A DNA stretch of 64,000 nucleotides, taken from assembly GCA_040754335.1 (NCBI GenBank), contig JBFMCV010000001.1:434001-498000 (forward strand). The letters run 5' to 3'. The stretch's first letter is position 1, and every line of letters begins with the position of its first letter. This stretch comes from Thermodesulfobacteriota bacterium (GTDB lineage Bacteria > Desulfobacterota_D > UBA1144 > Nemesobacterales > UBA2774). Below, in pieces: positions 479 through 39,025 of this stretch. The notes below the pieces were generated by a model. It saw only the letters and a program-made list of their open reading frames with translations, did no database searches and was not told the origin of the DNA. Made by a program: the position numbers and the translations under genes.

Positions 479-507
479 TTGTGGACGGATAATTATCATG
501 ATATAAC
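479..507 (+). promoter_or_regulatory. Promoter of the SDR gene, extended -10, nearly leaderless
   Basis: TTGTGG (479-484), a 17-nt spacer and TATAAC (502-507), with TG one base upstream of the -10 (499-500). The ATG at 517 is only 9 nt past the -10, so transcription should start within about 3 nt of the start codon. There is no Shine-Dalgarno. Confidence 0.55.
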
Positions 508-516
508 GGTGCCGCA

Positions 517-9322: not shown

Positions 9323-9350
9323 TTGACGCTCATTCCAATGAATATATAAT
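9323..9350 (+). promoter_or_regulatory. Promoter of the second lpdA; decides its start codon
   Basis: TTGACG (9323-9328), 16 nt, TATAAT (9345-9350). It lies downstream of an in-frame ATG at 9301 and 10 nt upstream of the ATG at 9361, so only 9361 can be used from this promoter. Confidence 0.6.
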
Positions 9351-9360
9351 AGTCCCTGCC

Positions 9361-10794
9361 ATGGAAAAATTTGACCTCACAGTGATCGGATCGGGACCCG
9401 GCGGATACATCGCCGCGATAAGAGCGGCGCAGCTCGGAATGAAGGTAGCAGTCGTAGAAAGGGACAGGGCCGGAGGCGTCTGCCTCAACTGGGGCTGCAT
9501 ACCCTCCAAGTCCATAATCAAATGCGCAGAAGTCTACCAGTATTTCAAACATTCGGGAGAGTTCGGCATTGAACATAAAGGGCTTTCTTATGACTTCTCG
9601 AAGGTCATAGACAAGAGCCGGAACGCGTCCGATACCCTCACGAAAGGCGTCGAGTTCCTGTTCAAAAAAAATAAAGCCTCGCTCTTCAAGGGCGTCGGCA
9701 AACTGATTGCGAAAAACAAGGTCGGGGTCGTGCAGGAAAAGGGACAGATAGAGATAGACAGCGGCAAGATACTCATAGCCACGGGCTCAGTCCCCATGAC
9801 CCTTCCCGGCCTCGAGATCGACGGCAAGCAGATAATGACGAGCGACGAGGCTATCTTCCACAGGGAGGTCCCGGATTCTGTAGTCGTCATAGGCGGAGGA
9901 TATATAGGTTGTGAATTCGCATACGTCTACAACTCGTTCGGCAGCAAAGTGACCATTGTAGAAATGATGGACAGCCTTATTTGCGGGGCCGATGAAGAGG
10001 TGTCGAGGGAGCTCGAGAGGAGCTTTAAAAAGAAAGGCATTGAAGTGCTCACCTCCGCGAAGTTCAAAGAGGCTAAGAAAAAGAAAAGAGGCGTGGACGT
10101 AATCGTGGAAAAGTTAGCCGACAAGAGCGAGGCTGTGATAACCGCCTCGATGGTGCTGGTCGCCGTAGGCAGGCGTCCCGTGGCGAACGACGCCCCGACG
10201 TCGCTCAGCTACTACAAGAAGTCGGCTGACATAGGCCTGAGCGATCTCAGGATAGAGCTTGACGAAAGGGGATTCATAAAGACAGACGGCTCGTATATGA
10301 CCACGTGCGACAACGTGTACGCGATAGGAGACGTTATCGGGCCGCCGCTCCTCGCTCACAAGGCGTCCGAGGAAGGCGTCACAGCGGTCGAGCTGATGGC
10401 CGGGCTTAAGAGCAAGGTCCACTACGACAACATCCCCGGCTGTGTCTACTGCCAGCCCGAGGTATCCATGTTGGGCATGACCGAGAAACAGGCGAAGGAT
10501 AAGGGGATCGATTACTCCATCGGCAAGTTCCCGTTCAGGGCCGCCGGAAAAGCCGTAGGCACCGGCGAGACGGAAGGCTTCGTAAAGATAATCTCGGACA
10601 AATCCACTGGAGAGATTCTCGGCGCGCACATCATAGGCCACGGGGCTACAGAGCTTATAGCGGAGATAGCGGTCGGGAGGACATTGGAGACAACGCCTCT
10701 CGAGATAGCCATCACGTCCCACGCCCACCCCACCCTCTCCGAAGCCGTAATGGAAGCGGCCCTCGCCGCCCTCGGAAGAGCAAGGAATATATAA
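9361..10794 (+). CDS. lpdA: Dihydrolipoyl dehydrogenase (E3), copy 2
   Basis: A 477-residue flavoprotein disulfide reductase with FAD motif GSGPGG (10-15), redox cysteines Cys41/Cys46 in CLNWGC, a second GGGYIGC motif and catalytic His456/Glu461 in HPTLSE. All catalytic residues are present. I start it at 9361 because residues upstream would be atypical and a strong promoter overlaps that extension. It is on the opposite strand from aceE-aceF-lpdA and upstream of lipB, so it may serve another lipoyl complex (2-oxoglutarate dehydrogenase or glycine cleavage), neither of which is in the window. It clearly differs in sequence from copy 1 at 2785-4206, so it is not a recent duplicate. Confidence 0.93.
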   Translation: MEKFDLTVIGSGPGGYIAAIRAAQLGMKVAVVERDRAGGVCLNWGCIPSKSIIKCAEVYQYFKHSGEFGIEHKGLSYDFSKVIDKSRNASDTLTKGVEFLFKKNKASLFKGVGKLIAKNKVGVVQEKGQIEIDSGKILIATGSVPMTLPGLEIDGKQIMTSDEAIFHREVPDSVVVIGGGYIGCEFAYVYNSFGSKVTIVEMMDSLICGADEEVSRELERSFKKKGIEVLTSAKFKEAKKKKRGVDVIVEKLADKSEAVITASMVLVAVGRRPVANDAPTSLSYYKKSADIGLSDLRIELDERGFIKTDGSYMTTCDNVYAIGDVIGPPLLAHKASEEGVTAVELMAGLKSKVHYDNIPGCVYCQPEVSMLGMTEKQAKDKGIDYSIGKFPFRAAGKAVGTGETEGFVKIISDKSTGEILGAHIIGHGATELIAEIAVGRTLETTPLEIAITSHAHPTLSEAVMEAALAALGRARNI

Positions 10795-11189: not shown

Positions 11190-11198
11190 TGATATAAT
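11190..11198 (+). promoter_or_regulatory. Extended -10 of lipB, predicted leaderless transcript
   Basis: TGaTATAAT (11190-11198), a perfect extended -10. The ATG at 11205 is 6 nt beyond it, which places +1 on the A of the start codon. There is no Shine-Dalgarno. Confidence 0.6.
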
Positions 11199-11204
11199 AA
11201 AATA

Positions 11205-11957
11205 ATGAACACCTTTAAAGTCTACAAGCTCGGGACTGTCCCCTACGGAAAAGCGCTCGACCTCCAGCTGAAACTTCTCGAGATGAGAAAGAACGAAGAG
11301 ATCGGGGACACTCTCCTTCTCCTGGAACACCCTCCCACGTTCACGATCGGACGCCGCGGCAATATGGGGAACCTCCTCGCCGCGAAGAGCCACCTAGAGA
11401 AAGCCGGCATCCATTTCGAGGTGATAAGCAGGGGCGGCGACATAACTTACCACGGCCCCGGCCAGCTCGTCGGATATCCTATAATGGACCTGAACGGCAT
11501 GGGGAGGGACATCCACAAGTATCTGAGGAACCTCGAAGAGACGATCATAGTATCGCTCGGGAACTTCGGCATACGCGGAAGGAGGATCGAAGGCGTAACC
11601 GGCGTCTGGACGAAATGGCACAAGATTGCCTCGATCGGGGTCGGCGTCAGGAGGTGGGTCACATACCACGGCTTCGCGCTTAACGTGAATACCGACCTCT
11701 CCTACTTCGACATGATAGTTCCCTGCGGTATAGAAAACGTGCAGATGACTTCCATTCAGAGATGGCTCGGGAAAAAAGAATATATAGACATGCCGGATGT
11801 AGAGGATAGTATAATTAAAGCATTTTCTCAGGTATTTAACATAACCCACTCGAATACAACAACACTCTATAACAATTTCAGAGATAAAGACGTCGACTTC
11901 GACCTTCTCCTCGACATCGAGAAAAGGCTCGAGGCCAAGTCAGACCTGACCGCATGA
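11205..11957 (+). CDS. lipB: Octanoyl-[acyl-carrier-protein]:protein octanoyltransferase
   Basis: A 250-residue LipB that moves an octanoyl group from octanoyl-ACP to the lipoyl-domain lysine, the first step of endogenous lipoate attachment. The family core is visible: TIGRRG (48-52), RGGDITYHGPGQLVGYP with His83, Lys140 in KIASIG, HGFALNVN (155-162) and the acyl-accepting Cys174 in VPCGI. Lys140 and Cys174 correspond to E. coli Lys135 and Cys169. It sits beside two lpdA genes and aceF, its likely substrate. lipA is not in the window. The last 50 residues after the family core are variable. Translation probably starts without a leader. Confidence 0.95.
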   Translation: MNTFKVYKLGTVPYGKALDLQLKLLEMRKNEEIGDTLLLLEHPPTFTIGRRGNMGNLLAAKSHLEKAGIHFEVISRGGDITYHGPGQLVGYPIMDLNGMGRDIHKYLRNLEETIIVSLGNFGIRGRRIEGVTGVWTKWHKIASIGVGVRRWVTYHGFALNVNTDLSYFDMIVPCGIENVQMTSIQRWLGKKEYIDMPDVEDSIIKAFSQVFNITHSNTTTLYNNFRDKDVDFDLLLDIEKRLEAKSDLTA

Positions 11958-13423: not shown

Positions 13424-15379
13424 ATGTCGGATTCGAATACGGTCAGGACTCACACGGCGAATTTAGACCGAATGGACGATACCGGCTTCGGAAGCGGTTC
13501 CACTGAGGGACTCACAGCACCGGATCTTCCGGGAGGGCCGCTTCAGCTCGACCTCGACAAGAAGTACGAAAAAATCAGCAGATACGAAAAGACCGTCAGA
13601 ATCATTACGCAGAAGGTCCACAGGTCTCTCGATCTCGACGACGTCATCGACTGCGCGGTCGATGTCATGAACAAGCATATAGAGACGGCCGGGAACGTCT
13701 CGATCTATATAGTCGAGGGCGACAAGGCGGTACTCAAATCCTATAGAGGGTATCCGTATTATTACATGGAAAAGCTCGCCGCGATCCCCTACCCTAGGGG
13801 GTTCACCTGGAAGACCATTCTTGAATCCAGGCCTTGCTATTGTCCCGACGTCGATAAGGACACCATAATAGGGCAACTCGGCAGGGAGTTGGGGACGAAG
13901 TCTTACGTTTCGATGCCTATCCGCCATAAGGGCAAGGCGATAGGATGCATCAACATCAATTCCTTGAGGAAAAATGCGTTCGACCAGGAAGAGCTGGACC
14001 TTCTAGAAATAGTCGCTTCCTCGATCGAATCGGCGATAAACAATGCGAGGAGAGCCGATGCCCTCAAGAAATCGCGGGAGGCGCTCAGGGAAAACATAGC
14101 GAAGCTCAGAAGGAAGAACCGGTTTGAAAAGGTCATAAGCTCGGTCACGAGGTCGGTGCACCGGTCTCTCGAAGTTTCCGAGGTGTTTGAAAATGCGGTC
14201 GAAGCTATTTACAACGAGGTCAGGGAAGCGGGCCATGTAATGATCTACATGATAGAAAACACCGGTACGGAGGAAAAGAATTCTTACGCAGTTATGAAAG
14301 CTCAGCGCGGGCACCCGGACAGTTTTATAGAGCGCGTAAAGCGGATACCCTACCCCATGGGGGCTACATGGAAGGCGATCATGGGCGGCAAGCCGAGATA
14401 CATAGCCGATTCCGATGCAGACCCGCATCTCGGACAGGCGGGCAGGGATTACGGTGCAAAGAGCTACATTTCGATGCCTATCAAGCTGGAAGACGACACA
14501 GTGGGCTGCATACACATTCATTCGTTCAAGAAAAGCGCATTTAACAGGGACCACGTCAAGCTGCTCGACATAGTCGCGAGGCAGCTTGAAACTGCGATCA
14601 ACAACGCCAGGAAAACCGAGGCGCTCAGGAAGTCCGAGGAGGCCTTGCGGAAGACGAGAGACGAGCTCGAAGGGCGCGTCAGGGAGCGCACCTCGGAGCT
14701 CCAGAAATCGAACACGCTCCTCATCAAGGAGATTCTCGAAAGGAGGTATGTCGAGAACGAATTAAAGCAGTCGCTCACCGAAAAGGACGTCCTGCTCAAA
14801 GAGATCCACCACAGAGTGAAGAACAACCTCCAGATAATTTCGAGCCTCCTCAATCTCCAGTCCCGCAAGCTCAAAGACGGAAAGGCCCGTGCGTCCTTCG
14901 TCGAGAGCAACAACCGCATAAGGTCTATAGCCACGCTCCACGAGCAGCTCTACCGCTCGAAGGACCTCTCCCGTATCGATTTCGGGGCGCACATAAGGAA
15001 TATGACGAACCACCTGCTCCGCTCCTACGGCGTGGGGAGCGACCGTATAAGAATAGCGGTCGATTCCGAGCAGATATACCTCGATATCAACACTGCGATC
15101 CCGCTCGGGCTCGTAGTGAACGAGCTCGTGTCCAATGCGATCAAGCACGGGTTTGACGGCATAACCGAAGGCGAGATAAAGATCGTATTCAGGAGGATAA
15201 ATGACAAATACTCTCTCAGCATGAGTAATAACGGGATTAAATTCCCCGAGGGCTTCGACATTGGCTCAAGCAATACACTGGGGCTCGAGCTTGTATCGTC
15301 GCTCTCGAAGCAGCTCAAAGGCACGATAGCGCTTTCGAGCGGGGACGTTACGGAATTCAACCTCGTATTCGGGGCGTAG
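13424..15379 (+). CDS. Cytosolic sensor histidine kinase with two GAF domains (HisKA_2 type)
   Basis: A 651-residue kinase without membrane segments. Order: a disordered N-terminus (1-45), a GAF domain (about 55-210), a second similar GAF domain (about 235-395), a coiled coil (about 395-455), a HisKA_2 dimerisation domain with phospho-acceptor His463 in HHRVKNN, and a HATPase with the N-box [11 protein letters not shown] near 567-577. The two GAF domains look like an internal duplication: both carry an IPYP-x-G stretch and a KSY-[VI]-S-MPI stretch. GAGG lies 7 nt before the ATG. The response regulator at 15402 and the LuxR protein at 15948 follow closely, so all three probably form one operon. 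The ligand is unknown. Confidence 0.88.
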
Positions 15380-18173: not shown

Positions 18174-19442
18174 TTACAAATGGAGCCCTTCGAACAGGGG
18201 CCCTGATTTTCTCTCCCTCGACAGGTCTTCCGCGTGACTGAGCTCGCGCCTGAATTTCCCGTCAACTAAAAGGTCGGCGAGCGCAGTGGCCGCGCCGTAC
18301 GAGATCATGAGCCCCCTTCCCGTGTGCGCCTCGCACTCGTAGACGTTCTCGAGGCCGGGCACTCTGCCGAGATAACCCGAGCGGTCGGGCGTCTCCGCGT
18401 ACATGCCCGCCCATCCCCTTATGAATTTCACCTTCTCGAACCCGCTTATCCTCTTCCAGAGGGGCTGCCAGATGTGTTTCACGAACGGGCTTTCCTCGGT
18501 CATGCCCCCGAAGCTGAACTCGAAGTTGTAGCCGTAGGGCTCGTCCATGTTGGAATACCCCGCGAGAATGTTTTCTCCGTCCTGGTGGAAATAAATGTCG
18601 GACGTGTCTATCAGCATCCCGTAAGGCGAAAGGTCGACGTCCGGGCAGTGGAGCACCACCATCTGGCGCCTCCTGGGTTTTACTCCCTCGTCCTTAAACC
18701 CGTAAAGGGCAGAGACGCGGGGCGCCCAGGCCCCGGCCGTGTTTATGAGCGTCCCGCATTCGAACTCGATCCGGGGCAGGCCGTGATCGACGCTGTCGTC
18801 TTCCAGTATCGTCTTCACTTTTTCTTCGACTGCGCTCCTGTTCCTGTTGTATCCGCGGAGGTCGTAGGCCGTGACCTCTTTCGCCCTCCCGCCTTCGACC
18901 GTGATCCCCGCGGCATAGCACCTGTCGAAGAACCTGACCCCGTTCTTCCTCGCCCCGGCCCTGTAGAATTCCCTTAACGAGTAGTGGTCTATGAGCCCCG
19001 CTTTTCTCGATACCGAGAGCCCTTCTATCCCTTCTATGTTGTCGACGAGCGGGAGTATCGAAGGGACCTCTTCCGGGGGATACAGCTCCACCGGGAGGCC
19101 GTACTCCACGTAGAGCGGATGGTTCTCGTTTATCTCCTGCCACGACTTGGCACCGTGCATCCAGAAGTAACCGAGCTCCCGGAACTGTATTAAGTCCGCG
19201 ATCGATTCGTAGAAATCGATCGAGTACTTGCAGAGCTCTATGTTCGCGCGGCTCCTCCATGTGGCCCTCACGCCCCCCGCGTTCTTGAGCGTAGAGGAAA
19301 GCCCTCCTTCCATGTCTATATCGATTACGCCGATAGCGGCCTTCAAGCTATTTTCGCTGAGCTTTCTGGAAAGCGCATATGCCCCCGCCGAGCCGAGTAT
19401 GCCGGCGCCGATGAAGAGGAAGTCGAAAGTGCGATCGCTCAT
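18174..19442 (-). CDS. FAD-dependent oxidoreductase, DAO family
   Basis: A 422-residue flavoprotein of the D-amino-acid oxidase/sarcosine oxidase beta/glycerol-3-phosphate dehydrogenase class. The N-terminal dinucleotide motif GAGILG is at 12-17. A conserved GGVRATWRSRAN segment and a C-terminal region with RGWAGMYAETPDR and HTGRGLM are typical of this family. The substrate cannot be deduced; sarcosine, proline or a similar secondary amine is plausible. It is monocistronic and divergent from dinB. An extended -10 (TGaTAGAAT) lies 6 nt before the ATG and no Shine-Dalgarno is present, so the mRNA is probably leaderless. Confidence 0.85.
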   Translation of the reverse strand: MSDRTFDFLFIGAGILGSAGAYALSRKLSENSLKAAIGVIDIDMEGGLSSTLKNAGGVRATWRSRANIELCKYSIDFYESIADLIQFRELGYFWMHGAKSWQEINENHPLYVEYGLPVELYPPEEVPSILPLVDNIEGIEGLSVSRKAGLIDHYSLREFYRAGARKNGVRFFDRCYAAGITVEGGRAKEVTAYDLRGYNRNRSAVEEKVKTILEDDSVDHGLPRIEFECGTLINTAGAWAPRVSALYGFKDEGVKPRRRQMVVLHCPDVDLSPYGMLIDTSDIYFHQDGENILAGYSNMDEPYGYNFEFSFGGMTEESPFVKHIWQPLWKRISGFEKVKFIRGWAGMYAETPDRSGYLGRVPGLENVYECEAHTGRGLMISYGAATALADLLVDGKFRRELSHAEDLSRERKSGPLFEGLHL

Positions 19443-19448
19443 GGAAAT

Positions 19449-19457
19449 ATTCTATCA
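19449..19457 (-). promoter_or_regulatory. Extended -10 of the FAD oxidoreductase, predicted leaderless
   Basis: On the minus strand TGaTAGAAT (19449-19457), followed by 6 nt and the ATG at 19442. The -35 is poor, as expected for an extended -10. Confidence 0.55.
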
Positions 19458-19512
19458 CACTGTTCCTTACCGGGAGTGTGGAGGATTGGGAAGGCTTGCG
19501 CCTTGGAATTTA

Positions 19513-19521
19513 TGTTATCAT
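19513..19521 (+). promoter_or_regulatory. Extended -10 of dinB, nearly leaderless
   Basis: TGtTATCAT (19513-19521), 9 nt before the ATG at 19531. There is no Shine-Dalgarno. No E. coli-type LexA box (CTGT-N8-ACAG) is visible. Confidence 0.5.
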
Positions 19522-19530
19522 TTTTGCGTG

Positions 19531-20796
19531 ATGGGTGATCATCGGCTCGGGTGGCTTTTCGTGGACATGAACTCGTACTTCGCCTCGGTCGAGCAGCAGA
19601 CGAGGCCCGGCCTCAGGGGCAGGCCCGTGGCCGTTGCCGCCGTTATGACGGACAGCACGTGCTGCATAGCCGCGAGCTACGAGGCGAAAAAATACGGCAT
19701 TAAAACCGGGACGGGCGTCGGAGAGGCCCGCAGGCTTTGCCCGGACCTCGAAATCGTGGAATCGAGGCCGGAGATATACATCGAGACGCATCATAAAATA
19801 GTCTCTGCCGTGAGCTCCGTGCTGCCCGTGGATACGGTGCAGTCGATAGACGAGATGTCCTGCCGTCTTACGGGGAGGCAGACGGTCCTGGAAAATGCCG
19901 TAAAGCTTGGGCACGCCGTTAAGAAGGCGATCAGGGAGCAGGCGGGGGAATACCTCCGGTGCTCCGTCGGGATCGCGCCCAACCGCTTCCTGGCCAAGGT
20001 GGCGACCGATATGGAGAAGCCCGACGGCTTTACGGTTATAACGAAAGAAGACCTTCCGCATAAATTATATTCCCTCTCCCTTACCGACCTGCCGGGCATA
20101 GGGAGGAGGATGCACGACCGCTTGAGGAGAAGCGGCGTGCATACGGTCGAAGCCCTTTGCGCTCTCTCGGAAGAAAGGGTCTCCGGCATATGGGGAAGCG
20201 TCGTGGGCAAGCGGCTCCACCGGTTGCTCCGGGGCGAGGATATTATCGAGACCGCGTCGTCGAGGAAGACGGTCGGGCACTCCCACGTGCTGCCCCCCGA
20301 ATTCAGGACGGACGAAGGGACGCGGGCGGTGTTCATAAAGCTCATACACAAGGCGGCGTTCAGGCTGAGGAGGCTCAGGTACCTTTCCGACAGAATGACG
20401 ATCGGTATCGACTACCTGGGGGATGAAGAGAGCTGGGTGAAGGCCGCGAATATAGGGAAGAGGAACGATACTCAGACCATGATCGACGCCTTCTCCGGAA
20501 TGTGGGAGGAGAGACCTGTCGCGGGGAGGCCGCTCCGTGCGTCCGTCACCTTCTCCGACCTCACCCCCTCCGGCGAGTCACCTATGAATTTGTTCGACGG
20601 AGAGAGGAAGCTCGACAAGGTGTCGGGCGCGCTTGACGAGATAAACGAGCGGTGGGGGGCGGACAGCATCTATTACGGGGCTATGCACGGCGCCCTGGAT
20701 TCGGCTCCGATGAGGATAGGGTTCACATCGATACCGGACGCGGTCGCCGAGGGGAATAAAGGGAGACAAAAGACGGGGAGGCCCGGCAAGGATTAA
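19531..20796 (+). CDS. dinB: Y-family DNA polymerase (DNA polymerase IV)
   Basis: A 421-residue translesion polymerase. Catalytic metal ligands are visible as Asp12 in FVDMNSYF and Asp107-Glu108 in SIDE. The steric-gate aromatic is near Phe17. The helix-hairpin-helix thumb segment (LPGIGRRM) and a little-finger domain follow. Length is slightly above E. coli DinB (351) because of a longer C-terminus. The frame is open upstream to 19228, but that part overlaps the FAD oxidoreductase and its promoter, so I start at 19531. No imuB or dnaE2 is adjacent. Role: replication past damaged bases, with low fidelity. Confidence 0.92.
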   Translation: MGDHRLGWLFVDMNSYFASVEQQTRPGLRGRPVAVAAVMTDSTCCIAASYEAKKYGIKTGTGVGEARRLCPDLEIVESRPEIYIETHHKIVSAVSSVLPVDTVQSIDEMSCRLTGRQTVLENAVKLGHAVKKAIREQAGEYLRCSVGIAPNRFLAKVATDMEKPDGFTVITKEDLPHKLYSLSLTDLPGIGRRMHDRLRRSGVHTVEALCALSEERVSGIWGSVVGKRLHRLLRGEDIIETASSRKTVGHSHVLPPEFRTDEGTRAVFIKLIHKAAFRLRRLRYLSDRMTIGIDYLGDEESWVKAANIGKRNDTQTMIDAFSGMWEERPVAGRPLRASVTFSDLTPSGESPMNLFDGERKLDKVSGALDEINERWGADSIYYGAMHGALDSAPMRIGFTSIPDAVAEGNKGRQKTGRPGKD

Positions 20797-32093: not shown

Positions 32094-32123
32094 TTGACTT
32101 ACGTGCCGTTAAGCAATTAATAT
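32094..32123 (+). promoter_or_regulatory. hemB promoter, nearly leaderless
   Basis: TTGACT (32094-32099), 18 nt, TAATAT (32118-32123). The ATG at 32132 follows 8 nt later and has no Shine-Dalgarno. Confidence 0.45.
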
Positions 32124-32131
32124 ATACCTTA

Positions 32132-33115
32132 ATGTACTTCCCCGCCTACCGTCCGAGAAGGTTAAGAAAAAACGAGCGTTTGAGAGAGATGATAGCCGAG
32201 ACCGCTATATCTCCCGGGGAGCTCGTATACCCCATGTTCGTCACGCCGGGTAAGGGGGAAAAGGCTGAGGTAAGCTCGATGCCCGGAATTTACAAGCAGT
32301 CCGCGGACAATATCGTAAAGGAAGCGCTCGAGGCCGAGAAGCTGGGCGTGAATTCTATACTCCTTTTCGGCATACCGGAAAAGAAGGACGAGACGGGCTC
32401 CGAGGGGTACGACCCGAACGGCGTCGTACAGAGAGCCGTGAGGGAGCTCAAGAAGAAGGCGAAGGGACTCGTCGTTATCACGGACGTCTGCATGTGCGAA
32501 TACACGAGCCACGGACACTGCGGGATAATCAAGGGCGGCGAGGTGGATAACGACGAGACTATAGAGTACCTGGCCAAGATGGCCCTCTCGCACGCCGAAG
32601 CGGGCGCAGACATGGTGGCCCCGTCCGATATGATGGACGGACGCGTGGGCGTGATAAGGGACGTGCTCGACGAGAACGGCTTCGAGAGCCTGCCGATTAT
32701 GGCCTATTCCGCCAAGTACGCCTCTTCATTCTACGGCCCGTTCAGGGACGCCGCGGAGTCGCCTCCACAGTTCGGTGACAGGAAGGGTTACCAGATGGAC
32801 CGCCGTAACGTGAGGGAGGCGATGAGGGAGATCACGCTCGACATAGAGGAAGGGGCCGACATAATTATGATAAAGCCCGCGCTCTCCTATCTCGACGTGA
32901 TAAGGGCCGCGAGGGAGGAGTTCGACCACCCGGTCGCGGCTTATAACGTGAGCGGTGAGTATTCGATGGTCAAGGCTGCGGGACGCATGGGGTGGATCGA
33001 CGAATCTGAGGTCATGATGGAGATACTCACCAGCATCAAGAGGGCCGGAGCCGATATCATAATCACTTATCACGCGCTTGAGGCCGCGAGGATTCTTAAC
33101 CGGTCGCGGAAATAA
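32132..33115 (+). CDS. hemB: Porphobilinogen synthase (delta-aminolevulinic acid dehydratase)
   Basis: A 327-residue enzyme that condenses two 5-aminolevulinate molecules to porphobilinogen in haem, sirohaem and cobalamin synthesis. Active-site lysines are Lys195 (SAKYASSFYGPF) and Lys248 (MIKPALSYLD). Cys120, Cys122 and Cys130 in DVCMCEYTSHGHC form the three-cysteine zinc site seen in yeast, human and E. coli enzymes, so this is the zinc-dependent class and not the Mg-only Asp-rich class. The small DUF4177 gene follows by 3 bp. The cobalamin-dependent methionine synthase in this window is one eventual consumer of the pathway. Confidence 0.96.
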   Translation: MYFPAYRPRRLRKNERLREMIAETAISPGELVYPMFVTPGKGEKAEVSSMPGIYKQSADNIVKEALEAEKLGVNSILLFGIPEKKDETGSEGYDPNGVVQRAVRELKKKAKGLVVITDVCMCEYTSHGHCGIIKGGEVDNDETIEYLAKMALSHAEAGADMVAPSDMMDGRVGVIRDVLDENGFESLPIMAYSAKYASSFYGPFRDAAESPPQFGDRKGYQMDRRNVREAMREITLDIEEGADIIMIKPALSYLDVIRAAREEFDHPVAAYNVSGEYSMVKAAGRMGWIDESEVMMEILTSIKRAGADIIITYHALEAARILNRSRK

Positions 33116-35309: not shown

Positions 35310-38300
35310 TCAGTAGCCGAGATTGGGTCTCAGCCACTTTTCCGCCTCGGCGAGTGTCATGTTCTTCCGCTTCGCATAGTCTTCCGCCTGGTCCCTGTCG
35401 ATGTCGCCCACGTGGAAATACTTAGCCTTCGGGTGAGCGAAATACAGGCCCGCGACCGAGCTCGGAGGGTATATGGCGTAGTTCTCCGTGAGTCTTACTC
35501 CTATGTTCTTCTCGGCGTCGAGGAGCCGAAAGAGCGTCTCTTTCTCGGTGTGGTCGGGGCACGCGGGGTAACCGGGCGCGGGTCTTATGCCTCTGTACTT
35601 TTCCTTTATCAGGTCCTCGTACGAGAGGTCCTCCCCTTTTCCGTATCCCCAGTTCTCGCGCGCCTTTTTGTGCATCATCTCGGCGAGCGCCTCGGCTATC
35701 CTGTCGCCCAGAGCCTGCACCATTATCGCCGAGTAGTCGTCGTGCTTATCCTTGAAATAGTCCGAGTACTGCTCGACGCCCTCCCCCGCAGTGACGACGA
35801 ACCCTCCCAGATAATCCTCGCGGCCCGATTCCTCGGGCGCTACGTAATCCGCAAGGCACAGGTACTTCTCGTTCTCCCCCTTGTCCTTCTGCTGGCGGAG
35901 GAAATGGAAAGAGGCGATTGCCTTAGTCCGGCTCGTATCCGAATACACCTTGACGTCGTCCCCTATCCTCCCCGCGGGCCAGAACCCGAGCACGGCTTTG
36001 GGCCTGAACCTTTTTTCCGAGATGATGCGTTTCAGGAGTTTCTGTGCGTCGCCGTACAGGTTCTTCGCCTGCGTGCCCCATTTCTTGTGCTCGAGTATCT
36101 TCGGGTATTGTCCCTTGAGCTCCCATACCCAGAAGAAAGGCGACCAGTCAATGAAGGGTATTACGTATTCGAGGTGTATGTCGTCGAATACCTGGATACC
36201 GAGTTTTTCGGGCGTGTCGATAATTGCTTTCTTCCAGTCTTCCCTGAACCCTCTCGCCCTCGCCTTTTCCAGAGTAAGGAACCCTGTCTTTGTCTTCGAT
36301 CTGTCGTGGAGGGTCCTCAGCTCTTCGTGTCTCTTCTCCTGCTCCTTCACGAATTCGCCGTATTTCTCCGGGTTCAGCAGGTCGTTGCACACCCCTACGA
36401 CGAGGGAGGCGTCCTGCACGTGGCTCACGACCCCGCTGTAATGGGGAGCTATTTTTATGGCCGTGTGGGCCTTGCTCGTAGTGGCTCCACCGATAAGGAG
36501 CGGCGTCCTGAACCCCTGCCTCTCCATCTCTGAAGCGTTGTGCACCATCTCGTCGAGTGACGGTGTTATTAGGCCGCTCAGTCCTATAATGCTCGCGTCC
36601 ACTTCCCTGGCTTTTTTAAGAATATTCTCGCAGGGAACCATTACGCCTAAATCAAAGACCTCGTAGTTATTGCAGCCCAGTACCACGGAGACTATGTTTT
36701 TCCCTATGTCGTGGACGTCTCCCTTCACGGTCGCGATGACGAATTTCCCCCTCGCCTTTCCGCCCCCGGCTTTCTGTTTTTCGGCCTCCATAAAGGGCTC
36801 GAGGTACGCGACCGCCTTTTTCATGACGCGGGCGCTCTTTACGACTTGTGGGAGGAACATCTTCCCCTCTCCGAAAAGCTCGCCCACTACCTTCATGCCG
36901 TCCATGAGGGGGCCTTCTATTACGTCGAGGGGTTTTGAGTATTTGAGGCGCGCTTCCTCGGTGTCTTTCTCAATGTAAGCGTCTATGCCCTTGACGAGCG
37001 CGTGGGAGAGCCTCTCCTCGACCGACCCCTCCCTCCACGTCTCGGCCTCTTTCTCCCTGGCCTTCCCCGTGTCCTTTATCTTCTCCGCGTATTCTATGAG
37101 TATTTCGGTAGCCTCGGGCCTCCTGTTGAGGAGGACGTCTTCCACCTTTTGCAACAGGTCTTTGTCTATTTCTTCGTACACCTCGAGCATCCCGGCGTTC
37201 ACAATAGCCATGTCGAGGCCGGCGTCGATTGCGTGGTAGAGGAAGGCGCTGTGCATCGCCTCTCTCACGACGTTGTTGCCGCGGAATGAAAACGATATGT
37301 TGCTTATGCCTCCGCTCGTCTTAGCACCTGGGCAAGAGGCCTTTATCTCCCGCACCGCTTCTATGAAATCGAGCGCGTAGCTGTTGTGCTCGTCTATGCC
37401 CGTCGCGACCGTGAGCACGTTGGGATCGAATATTATGTCCTCCGGGTCCATTCCGACTTTTTTTGTCAGTATCTCGTACGCCCGCCTGCATATCCTGACC
37501 TTGTCGTCTTTGGTCGCCGCCTGTCCTTCCTCGTCAAACGCCATTACGACGGCGGCCGCGCCGTATCGCATTACCTTCCTCGCCTGCTCAATGAACTTCT
37601 CCTCCCCTTCCTTGAGGCTTATGGAGTTGACTATCCCTTTTCCCTGCAAGCACTTGAGACCCGCCTCGATAACGGAGAACTTCGAGCTGTCTATCATGAC
37701 GGGGACGCGCGCTATGTCGGGCTCAGACGCTATGAGGTTCATGAAGCGGGTCATGCAGGCCTCTCCGTCGAGGAGCGCCTCGTCGAAGTTGACGTCGATT
37801 ACGTTGGCGCCGTTCTCGACCTGCTGTTTCGCAACTTCAAGCGCCCCCTCGAAATCGTCTTCCTTGATGAGCTTCGCAAACCGGGGGGAGCCGGTCACGT
37901 TCGTCCTTTCGCCTACCATTATGAAAGGCGCGCCTTCCCCTATATCGAGCGCCTCGAGGCCGCTCAAGCGCGTGGCTTGAGGAATTACGGGTATCTTGCG
38001 GGGCGGGTACTTCCCCGCCTTCTCTACGATCGCTCTTATGTGGTCGGGTGTCGTGCCGCAGCAGCCGCCTACGATATTTATAAAACCGCTCGCGGCGAAG
38101 TCCTCCAGATAGGACGACGTGTCGGCCGGGGTCTGGTCATACCCTGTGTCACTCAGGGGATTTGGAAGCCCGGCGTTCGGGTAACAGCTGACGTAGCAGT
38201 CAGCTATCCTCGACAACTCTTCGATGTATGGACGCATCTCCCTGGCCCCGAGGGCGCAGTTTATGCCGACGCTCATAGGCTTCGCGTGCCTGACGGAGTT

Positions 38301-39008
38301 CCAGAAGGCTTCGAGAGTCTGCCCAGAGAGGGTCCTTCCGGAGGCGTCCGTGATGGTGACCGAGAGCATAAGGGGAAGGCGCAACCTGTGCTCGTCGAAG
38401 TACCTGTATATCCCGTAGATGGCGGCCTTGAGGTTTAAAGTGTCGAACGTAGTCTCGGCGAGTATTATGTCTATGCCCCCGTCGACGAGTCCCTTGAGCT
38501 GCTCGTAATACGCCTGGACCAGCTCCTCGAACGTGACCCCCCTCGCGGCGGGGTTGCTTACGTCGGGGGAGATAGAGGCCGACTTGGTCGTAGGGCCTAA
38601 TGCGCCCGCGACGAAGCATCTCCTACCCGGGTGTTCCGACATGAACTCGTCGGCGGCCTTTCTCGCCAGAGCCGCCGCCGTTTTGTTCAATTCGTAAACG
38701 ATGTCTTCAAGCCCGTAGTCCGACTGCGATATGCGGTTCGCGTTGAACGTATTAGTCTCGATTATATCAGCGCCCGCTTCGAGATAGCTCCTGTGAATGC
38801 CGGATACGATGTCCGGCCTCGTGAGAGAGAGGAGGTCGTTATTTCCCTTGAGCTCCTTCGGGTGGTCTTTGAATATTTCTCCGCGGAAGTCTGATTCCCC
38901 GGGCTTGTGGCGCTGTATCATTGTGCCCATAGCGCCGTCTATGAACATTATGCGCTTCGAGAGGATCTCTCTGAGAGTCTTAAGCGATTCGGATTCCTTT
39001 AGATTCAT
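35310..39008 (-). CDS. metH: Cobalamin-dependent methionine synthase
   Basis: A 1232-residue four-module enzyme that methylates homocysteine from 5-methyltetrahydrofolate. Order: homocysteine-binding barrel with zinc ligands (Cys in GINCALG and the Cys-Cys of [10 protein letters not shown]), pterin-binding barrel (starting near [10 protein letters not shown]), B12 cap and B12-binding domain with DVHDIGKN (the His displaces the lower ligand of cobalamin), and the C-terminal AdoMet activation domain ([12 protein letters not shown]). Full length compared with E. coli MetH (1227). An extended -10 is 8 nt before the ATG and there is no Shine-Dalgarno. The organism therefore uses or imports B12. 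thrC and a sulfur-carrier gene lie nearby. Confidence 0.97.
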
Positions 39009-39016
39009 AAGGGATT

Positions 39017-39025
39017 ATTATACCA
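39017..39025 (-). promoter_or_regulatory. Extended -10 of metH, nearly leaderless
   Basis: On the minus strand TGgTATAAT (39017-39025), a perfect extended -10, with 8 nt to the ATG at 39008. The short space rules out a cobalamin riboswitch or SAM riboswitch in a leader from this promoter. Confidence 0.6.

Follow-up and report, generated by a model that had tools for sequence, protein, structure and literature searches.

Conserved extended -10 boxes at leaderless distance before lipB, metH and two other genes of Candidatus Dadabacteria: a probable minority class of leaderless mRNAs

The window, meaning the whole stretch of 64,000 nucleotides that was analysed (C1:434001-498000), belongs to a Candidatus Dadabacteria genome of 3.26 Mb in 20 contigs, and four of its genes have an extended -10 box a few nucleotides before the start codon. 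The octanoyltransferase gene lipB (11205..11957, + strand; NCBIfam LipB, E 9.5e-55) was predicted to be leaderless; its box TGATATAAT at 11190-11198 and a 6-nt spacer form a feature (11190..11204, + strand) that ends directly before the ATG at 11205. The lipB start is secure because the NCBIfam LipB homology begins at residue 3, and the nearest named relatives of the protein were found in Candidatus Dadabacteria MAGs, with 73-86% identity. The gene of a FAD-dependent oxidoreductase (FADox; 18174..19442, - strand; Pfam DAO PF01266, E 5.2e-38), also predicted to be leaderless, is preceded by the extended -10 TGATAGAAT at 19449-19457 and a 6-nt spacer (feature 19443..19457, - strand; ATG 19442). 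The gene of a dinB-like Y-family polymerase (19531..20796, + strand; Pfam IMS, E 5.4e-37) possesses the box TGTTATCAT at 19513-19521 with a 9-nt spacer (feature 19513..19530, + strand; ATG 19531), and its mRNA was predicted to be leaderless or to have a leader of 0-3 nt. Furthermore, metH, encoding a cobalamin-dependent methionine synthase (35310..39008, - strand; NCBIfam NF007024, 2036 bits), has the box TGGTATAAT at 39017-39025 and an 8-nt spacer (feature 39009..39025, - strand; ATG 39008), with a predicted leaderless mRNA or very short leader. FADox and dinB are transcribed divergently from start codons 88 bp apart (19443-19530), with two outward extended -10 boxes at leaderless distance, and they stay adjacent in several relatives, such as G001, G003, G006, G005, G012 and G010. 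In addition, an in-frame GTG at 19528-19530 adjoins the dinB ATG exactly 6 nt past the box, GTT being found there in G006, and this GTG may be the true first codon of dinB in this genus. A second LipB paralog (47% identical) lies at about 663314-663990 (- strand) of the same contig; TAGAAT apparently stands 9 nt before its ATG, no Shine-Dalgarno (SD) sequence was seen, and this gene is possibly leaderless as well.

Two further genes were confirmed to be similar without the TG, as an earlier note on this DNA had described them. The -10 of hemB, whose product was confirmed as porphobilinogen synthase, is TAATAT, 8 nt before the ATG at 32132 (feature 32118..32131, + strand), with a TTGACT -35 at 18 nt. 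The second lpdA gene (lpdA2) has TATAAT 10 nt before the ATG at 9361 (feature 9345..9360, + strand), with a TTGACG -35 at 16 nt. The orthologs in G006 carry TTGACT-N18-TAAAAT at 8 nt (hemB) and TTGACG-N16-TATAAT at 10 nt (lpdA2), neither with an SD. If leaderless distance means that about 3-9 nt separate the end of the box from the start codon, hemB lies inside at 8 nt and lpdA2 just outside at 10 nt; a leader of 2-4 nt is predicted for the latter.

The earlier note had joined a short-chain dehydrogenase gene (SDR) to the four genes above. All five boxes were found at the positions and distances to the ATG that it gave (lipB 6, FADox 6, metH 8, dinB 9 and SDR 9 nt). The TGnTAnnnT pattern said to be shared by the five held for lipB, FADox, metH and dinB; the SDR box TGATATAAC at 499-507 (+ strand; feature 499..516; ATG 517) has C in place of the final T and falls outside this pattern. 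The absence of an SD claimed for the five was likewise found at the same four genes and failed for SDR, which has a weak GGTG match. Membership of SDR was refuted by an SD match at 14 of its 15 ortholog loci. The stretch common to the SDR relatives was TTGATT...GATAATTA, further upstream than the box, and SDR is most likely leadered.

An SD was scored as a match of at least 4 nt to AAGGAGGTGA at 3-13 nt before the start. No such match was found at lipB, FADox, metH, dinB, hemB or lpdA2, nor at their orthologs in G006, a relative from another genus of the same family. Among the 41 first genes of the window, 22 had an SD match, 8 had a -10-like box at 4-11 nt and no SD, and 11 had neither. The SD matches at these first genes and at 7 of the 12 operon-internal genes agree with the earlier statement that other genes of the window carry SD sites. 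Six of the eight boxed genes (lpdA2, lipB, FADox, dinB, hemB and metH) keep both the box and the absence of an SD in G006. The 11 genes with neither signal include those starting at 13472, 27411 and 52551, and several of the 11 are SD-less in G006 too. TGnTAnnnT occurred 42 times on both strands of the window, fewer than the shuffle mean of 59, and by arithmetic (53 genes x 4 distances) about 0.07 same-strand matches were expected at 6-9 nt before predicted starts, where 4 were seen.

The orthologs of the four genes were compared by anchoring them on the box, with identities computed against the genome of this window (G000) and the segment at -40..-21 relative to the box taken as upstream DNA. 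In orthologs from other genera (and, for metH, from another family), the boxes were 91-97% identical and the upstream segments 23-36%. The respective values were 97% and 36% for lipB, 91% and 30% for FADox, and 96% and 28% for metH. Little else upstream was conserved, and no conserved -35 was found at these four genes. A box conserved amid diverged upstream DNA has the look of an isolated functional -10.

The distance to the start codon was nearly fixed. At lipB, the 18-mer TGATATAATAAAATAATG was identical in G001 and G002, of the same genus, and in G009, of another genus (73% LipB protein identity), and TGCTATAAT stood 6 nt before lipB in G006. A box at 5-10 nt before the start, mostly without an SD, was found in 11 of 30 lipB, 8 of 13 FADox and 8 of 12 dinB orthologs; in the ortholog comparison, the lipB box was absent from genus g2 and most f6 genomes. 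TGnTAGAAT or close variants lay 6-7 nt before FADox in G003, G001, G006, G012, G005 and G010, and TGnTAGAAT was found at this distance in most f1 relatives. The dinB box was the same or nearly the same at 9 nt in G001, G003, G006 and G002, while G012 and G010 had TGTTATATT at 6-7 nt instead. For metH, TGGTATAAT, TGGTAAAAT or TGGTATACT was observed 5-9 nt before the ATG in families f1 and f4, the spacing drifting from 5 to 9 nt across orthologs. A -10 box at 5-10 nt was present, again mostly without an SD, in 18 of 27 metH orthologs (mostly of f1 and f4, 15 of them with the TG), compared with only 2-4 for any other 6-nt window. Unlike in f1 and f4, SD matches replace the start-codon box at metH of f6/g10 (L154, L156 and L157); therefore, the initiation mode of one gene can switch.

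Among 163 first-gene pairs of G000 and G006, 72 shared at least one -10 box in the 120 nt or so upstream; at 4-11 nt there were 15 conserved boxes, or about 9% of first genes. In 13 pairs both members had a box at 5-10 nt, and in 14 pairs only one did (odds ratio 46). Of the conserved boxes, those at 4-11 nt were preceded by the TG in 6 cases out of 15 and those at 26-60 nt in 6 out of 54; all 17 boxes at 12-25 nt lacked it. In the set with motif-blind starts, the TG stood before 17% of boxes at 6-9 nt, compared with 8% of those at SD-type distance (Fisher p 0.04). Moreover, in 54 Dadabacteria genomes of nine family-level groups, TGnTATAAT-N6-9-ATG occurred 482 times versus 298 for the phase-matched N15-18 (1.6-fold) and 332 for N45-48. 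Relative to N15-18, the excess had the same direction in all nine groups and was strongest in f6/g10 and f8; the genomes are related, so binomial p values for it are too small, and the direction is consistent. Called gene starts made up 4 of the 11 TGnTATAAT-N6-9-ATG matches in 1.92 Mb of G000, versus 0-1 at other distances. The mean -35 match was 3.08 with the TG and 3.45 without it, both from small numbers. Thus the TG is over-represented among leaderless-distance boxes, yet it is not their defining feature. It was rejected as the mark of the set, since lpdA2, hemB and most conserved boxes lack it, several of these having a -35.

The earlier note had suggested a tally of TAnnnT before ATG. 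It was run genome-wide, on gene calls that a self-trained coding model made in 1.92 Mb of G000 with starts picked blind to upstream motifs, and a modest peak at 6-9 nt, whose absence the note would have taken as a refutation, was found in SD-less first genes. Boxes were counted at two stringencies, at most two or at most one mismatch to TATAAT. At two mismatches, SD-less first genes had 70 boxes in the 6-9 nt window, where other 4-nt windows averaged 31.4 (maximum 43); at one mismatch, there were 36 compared with 13.2 (maximum 20). This excess amounts to about 4% of ATG first genes. When all coding-compatible starts were allowed, the peak was smaller (z 3.0-4.6), at about 2% of first genes. 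An SD match was found in about half of the first genes, and in these SD-led genes the -10 signal peaked at about 30-38 nt, with no peak at 6-9 nt; therefore, their leaders are about 25-30 nt long. No aggregate peak at 6-9 nt was found in the 398 kb of G006 that were read, which is a small sample. A whole-genome count of plain TATAAT before ATG showed no excess, with 6499 at N6-9 and 6458 at N16-19, a background-dominated comparison whose control was not phase-matched and which is weak either way.

The same pipeline was applied to two other bacteria. In 300 kb of Escherichia coli there was no strict peak (1 versus 1.3 at one mismatch), and 7 versus 3 were counted at two mismatches. Plasmid 2 of Deinococcus deserti, a species known to have many leaderless mRNAs (de Groot et al. 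2014, cited by PMC9581028), gave a peak (2 versus 0.1 and 5 versus 0.6). The excess in this leaderless-rich species was only about 5%, and the method therefore probably under-counts. In G000, the footprints and the genome-wide peak support the mixture of SD-led and leaderless initiation proposed in the earlier note. Its wording that many first genes are leaderless was too strong: the estimates are about 2-9% of first genes, and a share above 20% of genes was not reached.

Taken together, lipB, FADox, metH and dinB very probably have extended -10 promoters at leaderless distance, and their mRNAs would be leaderless or nearly so, as a minority class. The TGnTAnnnT promoters, read by the housekeeping sigma factor, would start transcription on the start codon or up to 3 nt ahead of it, and the ribosome would bind the 5'-terminal AUG or GUG with no Shine-Dalgarno. 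Where the transcripts begin, which sigma factor reads the promoters and how the ribosome binds at these genes are predictions from DNA sequence. The four genes would be the clearest of a class of a few percent, the rest of the genome being SD-led with leaders some 25-30 nt long. In bacteria, RNA polymerase begins transcription about 6-9 nt downstream of the -10 hexamer, and a box 6 nt before the ATG therefore puts +1 on its A, where the lipB transcript would begin. A corresponding range is given in the available text of Zheng et al. 2011 (PMC3160421). As described in PMC9031893, 70S ribosomes start leaderless mRNAs by recognising the 5' AUG.

The distances of 8-10 nt (metH, dinB, hemB and lpdA2) fit a leader of 1-4 nt as well as true leaderlessness. 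It is quite possible, if not the reading that we favour, that the boxes are real -10 elements with transcripts that begin 1-10 nt ahead of the start codon, forming a continuum of very short leaders with no separate leaderless class. Conserved boxes in the G000 and G006 pairs exceeded shuffled pairing at 5-9 nt (9 versus 0.75) and also at 10-14 (11 versus 1.25), 15-19 (6 versus 1.1) and 20-29 nt (10 versus 1.9), with no gap after 9 nt, and the drift of the metH spacing points the same way. However, where relatives have the lipB or FADox box, its distance is mostly 6 nt, and the motif-blind histogram of SD-less first genes has its maximum at 6-9 nt rather than 10-11. From 5 to 39 nt, each 5-nt bin held more conserved boxes than shuffled pairing gave; therefore, a continuum from leaderless to short-leader mRNAs is described here, and no sharply separate class is claimed.

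Far less probable is that the AT-rich box is a translation element, an A/U-rich S1-binding leader of an mRNA that starts further upstream. The 11 of 41 window first genes that lack both an SD and a box suggest that another SD-less mode is in use, but the motif is specific at its TG, TA and T positions and stands at a near-fixed distance, a conserved -35 pairs with the box at 16-18 nt in hemB and lpdA2, and the four TG genes share little other upstream sequence with their orthologs. Chance occurrence of the motif in AT-rich DNA between genes does explain the SDR box and about 31 of the 70 genome-wide boxes at 6-9 nt; as an explanation for the set as a whole it is most improbable, and it is ruled out for lipB, metH, FADox and dinB by cross-genus conservation (cross-family for metH), and the window count is far above expectation.

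Beyond extended -10 promoters at leaderless distance, a bolder proposal is made only tentatively, and we regard it as somewhat doubtful. The leaderless promoters of Dadabacteria might be a distinct architecture, in which a TG-extended -10 takes the place of the -35 and sets transcription to begin at the start codon. metH, lipB, FADox and dinB would then have kept it across genus- to family-level divergence, and leaderlessness would have been selected in these genes.

Mixed SD and leaderless initiation is an already known kind of system, newly seen in this lineage; no report of leaderless genes in Dadabacteria was found in the open literature, where the sole paper containing both terms, on a sponge microbiome, uses 'leaderless' once and has neither term in its title or abstract. 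The known range of bacteria combining SD-led with leaderless initiation thereby gains an uncultured lineage. Further interest lies in the deep conservation at metH and lipB and in the phylum-wide TG bias. The individual genes listed here, with a predicted leaderless state kept across long evolutionary distances, are good test cases for selection on leaderlessness. For gene-start prediction in such MAGs, SD-oriented programs could mis-call some of these starts.

According to the available text of Zheng et al. 2011 (PMC3160421), TA-led genes occur in 207 of 953 bacterial genomes and average about 2-7% in many groups, and a TG peak is found in some low-GC genomes, being extremely strong in Lactococcus; Dadabacteria are absent from the survey as that text presents it. 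The genes studied here are like these TA-led genes in having a -10-like signal about 10 bp before the start and no SD in an otherwise SD-led genome. They differ in that the genome is of middle GC content and the evidence is ortholog conservation, not the statistics of one genome. Leaderless transcription was reported for 21.6% of bacterial species and for up to 40% of transcripts (StartLink; PMC9581028). Genomes of the mixed Mycobacterium tuberculosis type, a GeneMarkS-2 class described in PMC9581028, similarly have leaderless first genes beside SD-led genes, whereas the fraction in the Dadabacteria genome is much smaller and is known from sequence alone. Like other extended -10 (TGn) promoters, those of lipB, metH, FADox and dinB have the TGn before the -10 hexamer. 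No conserved -35 was found at them, and here they stand at leaderless distance.
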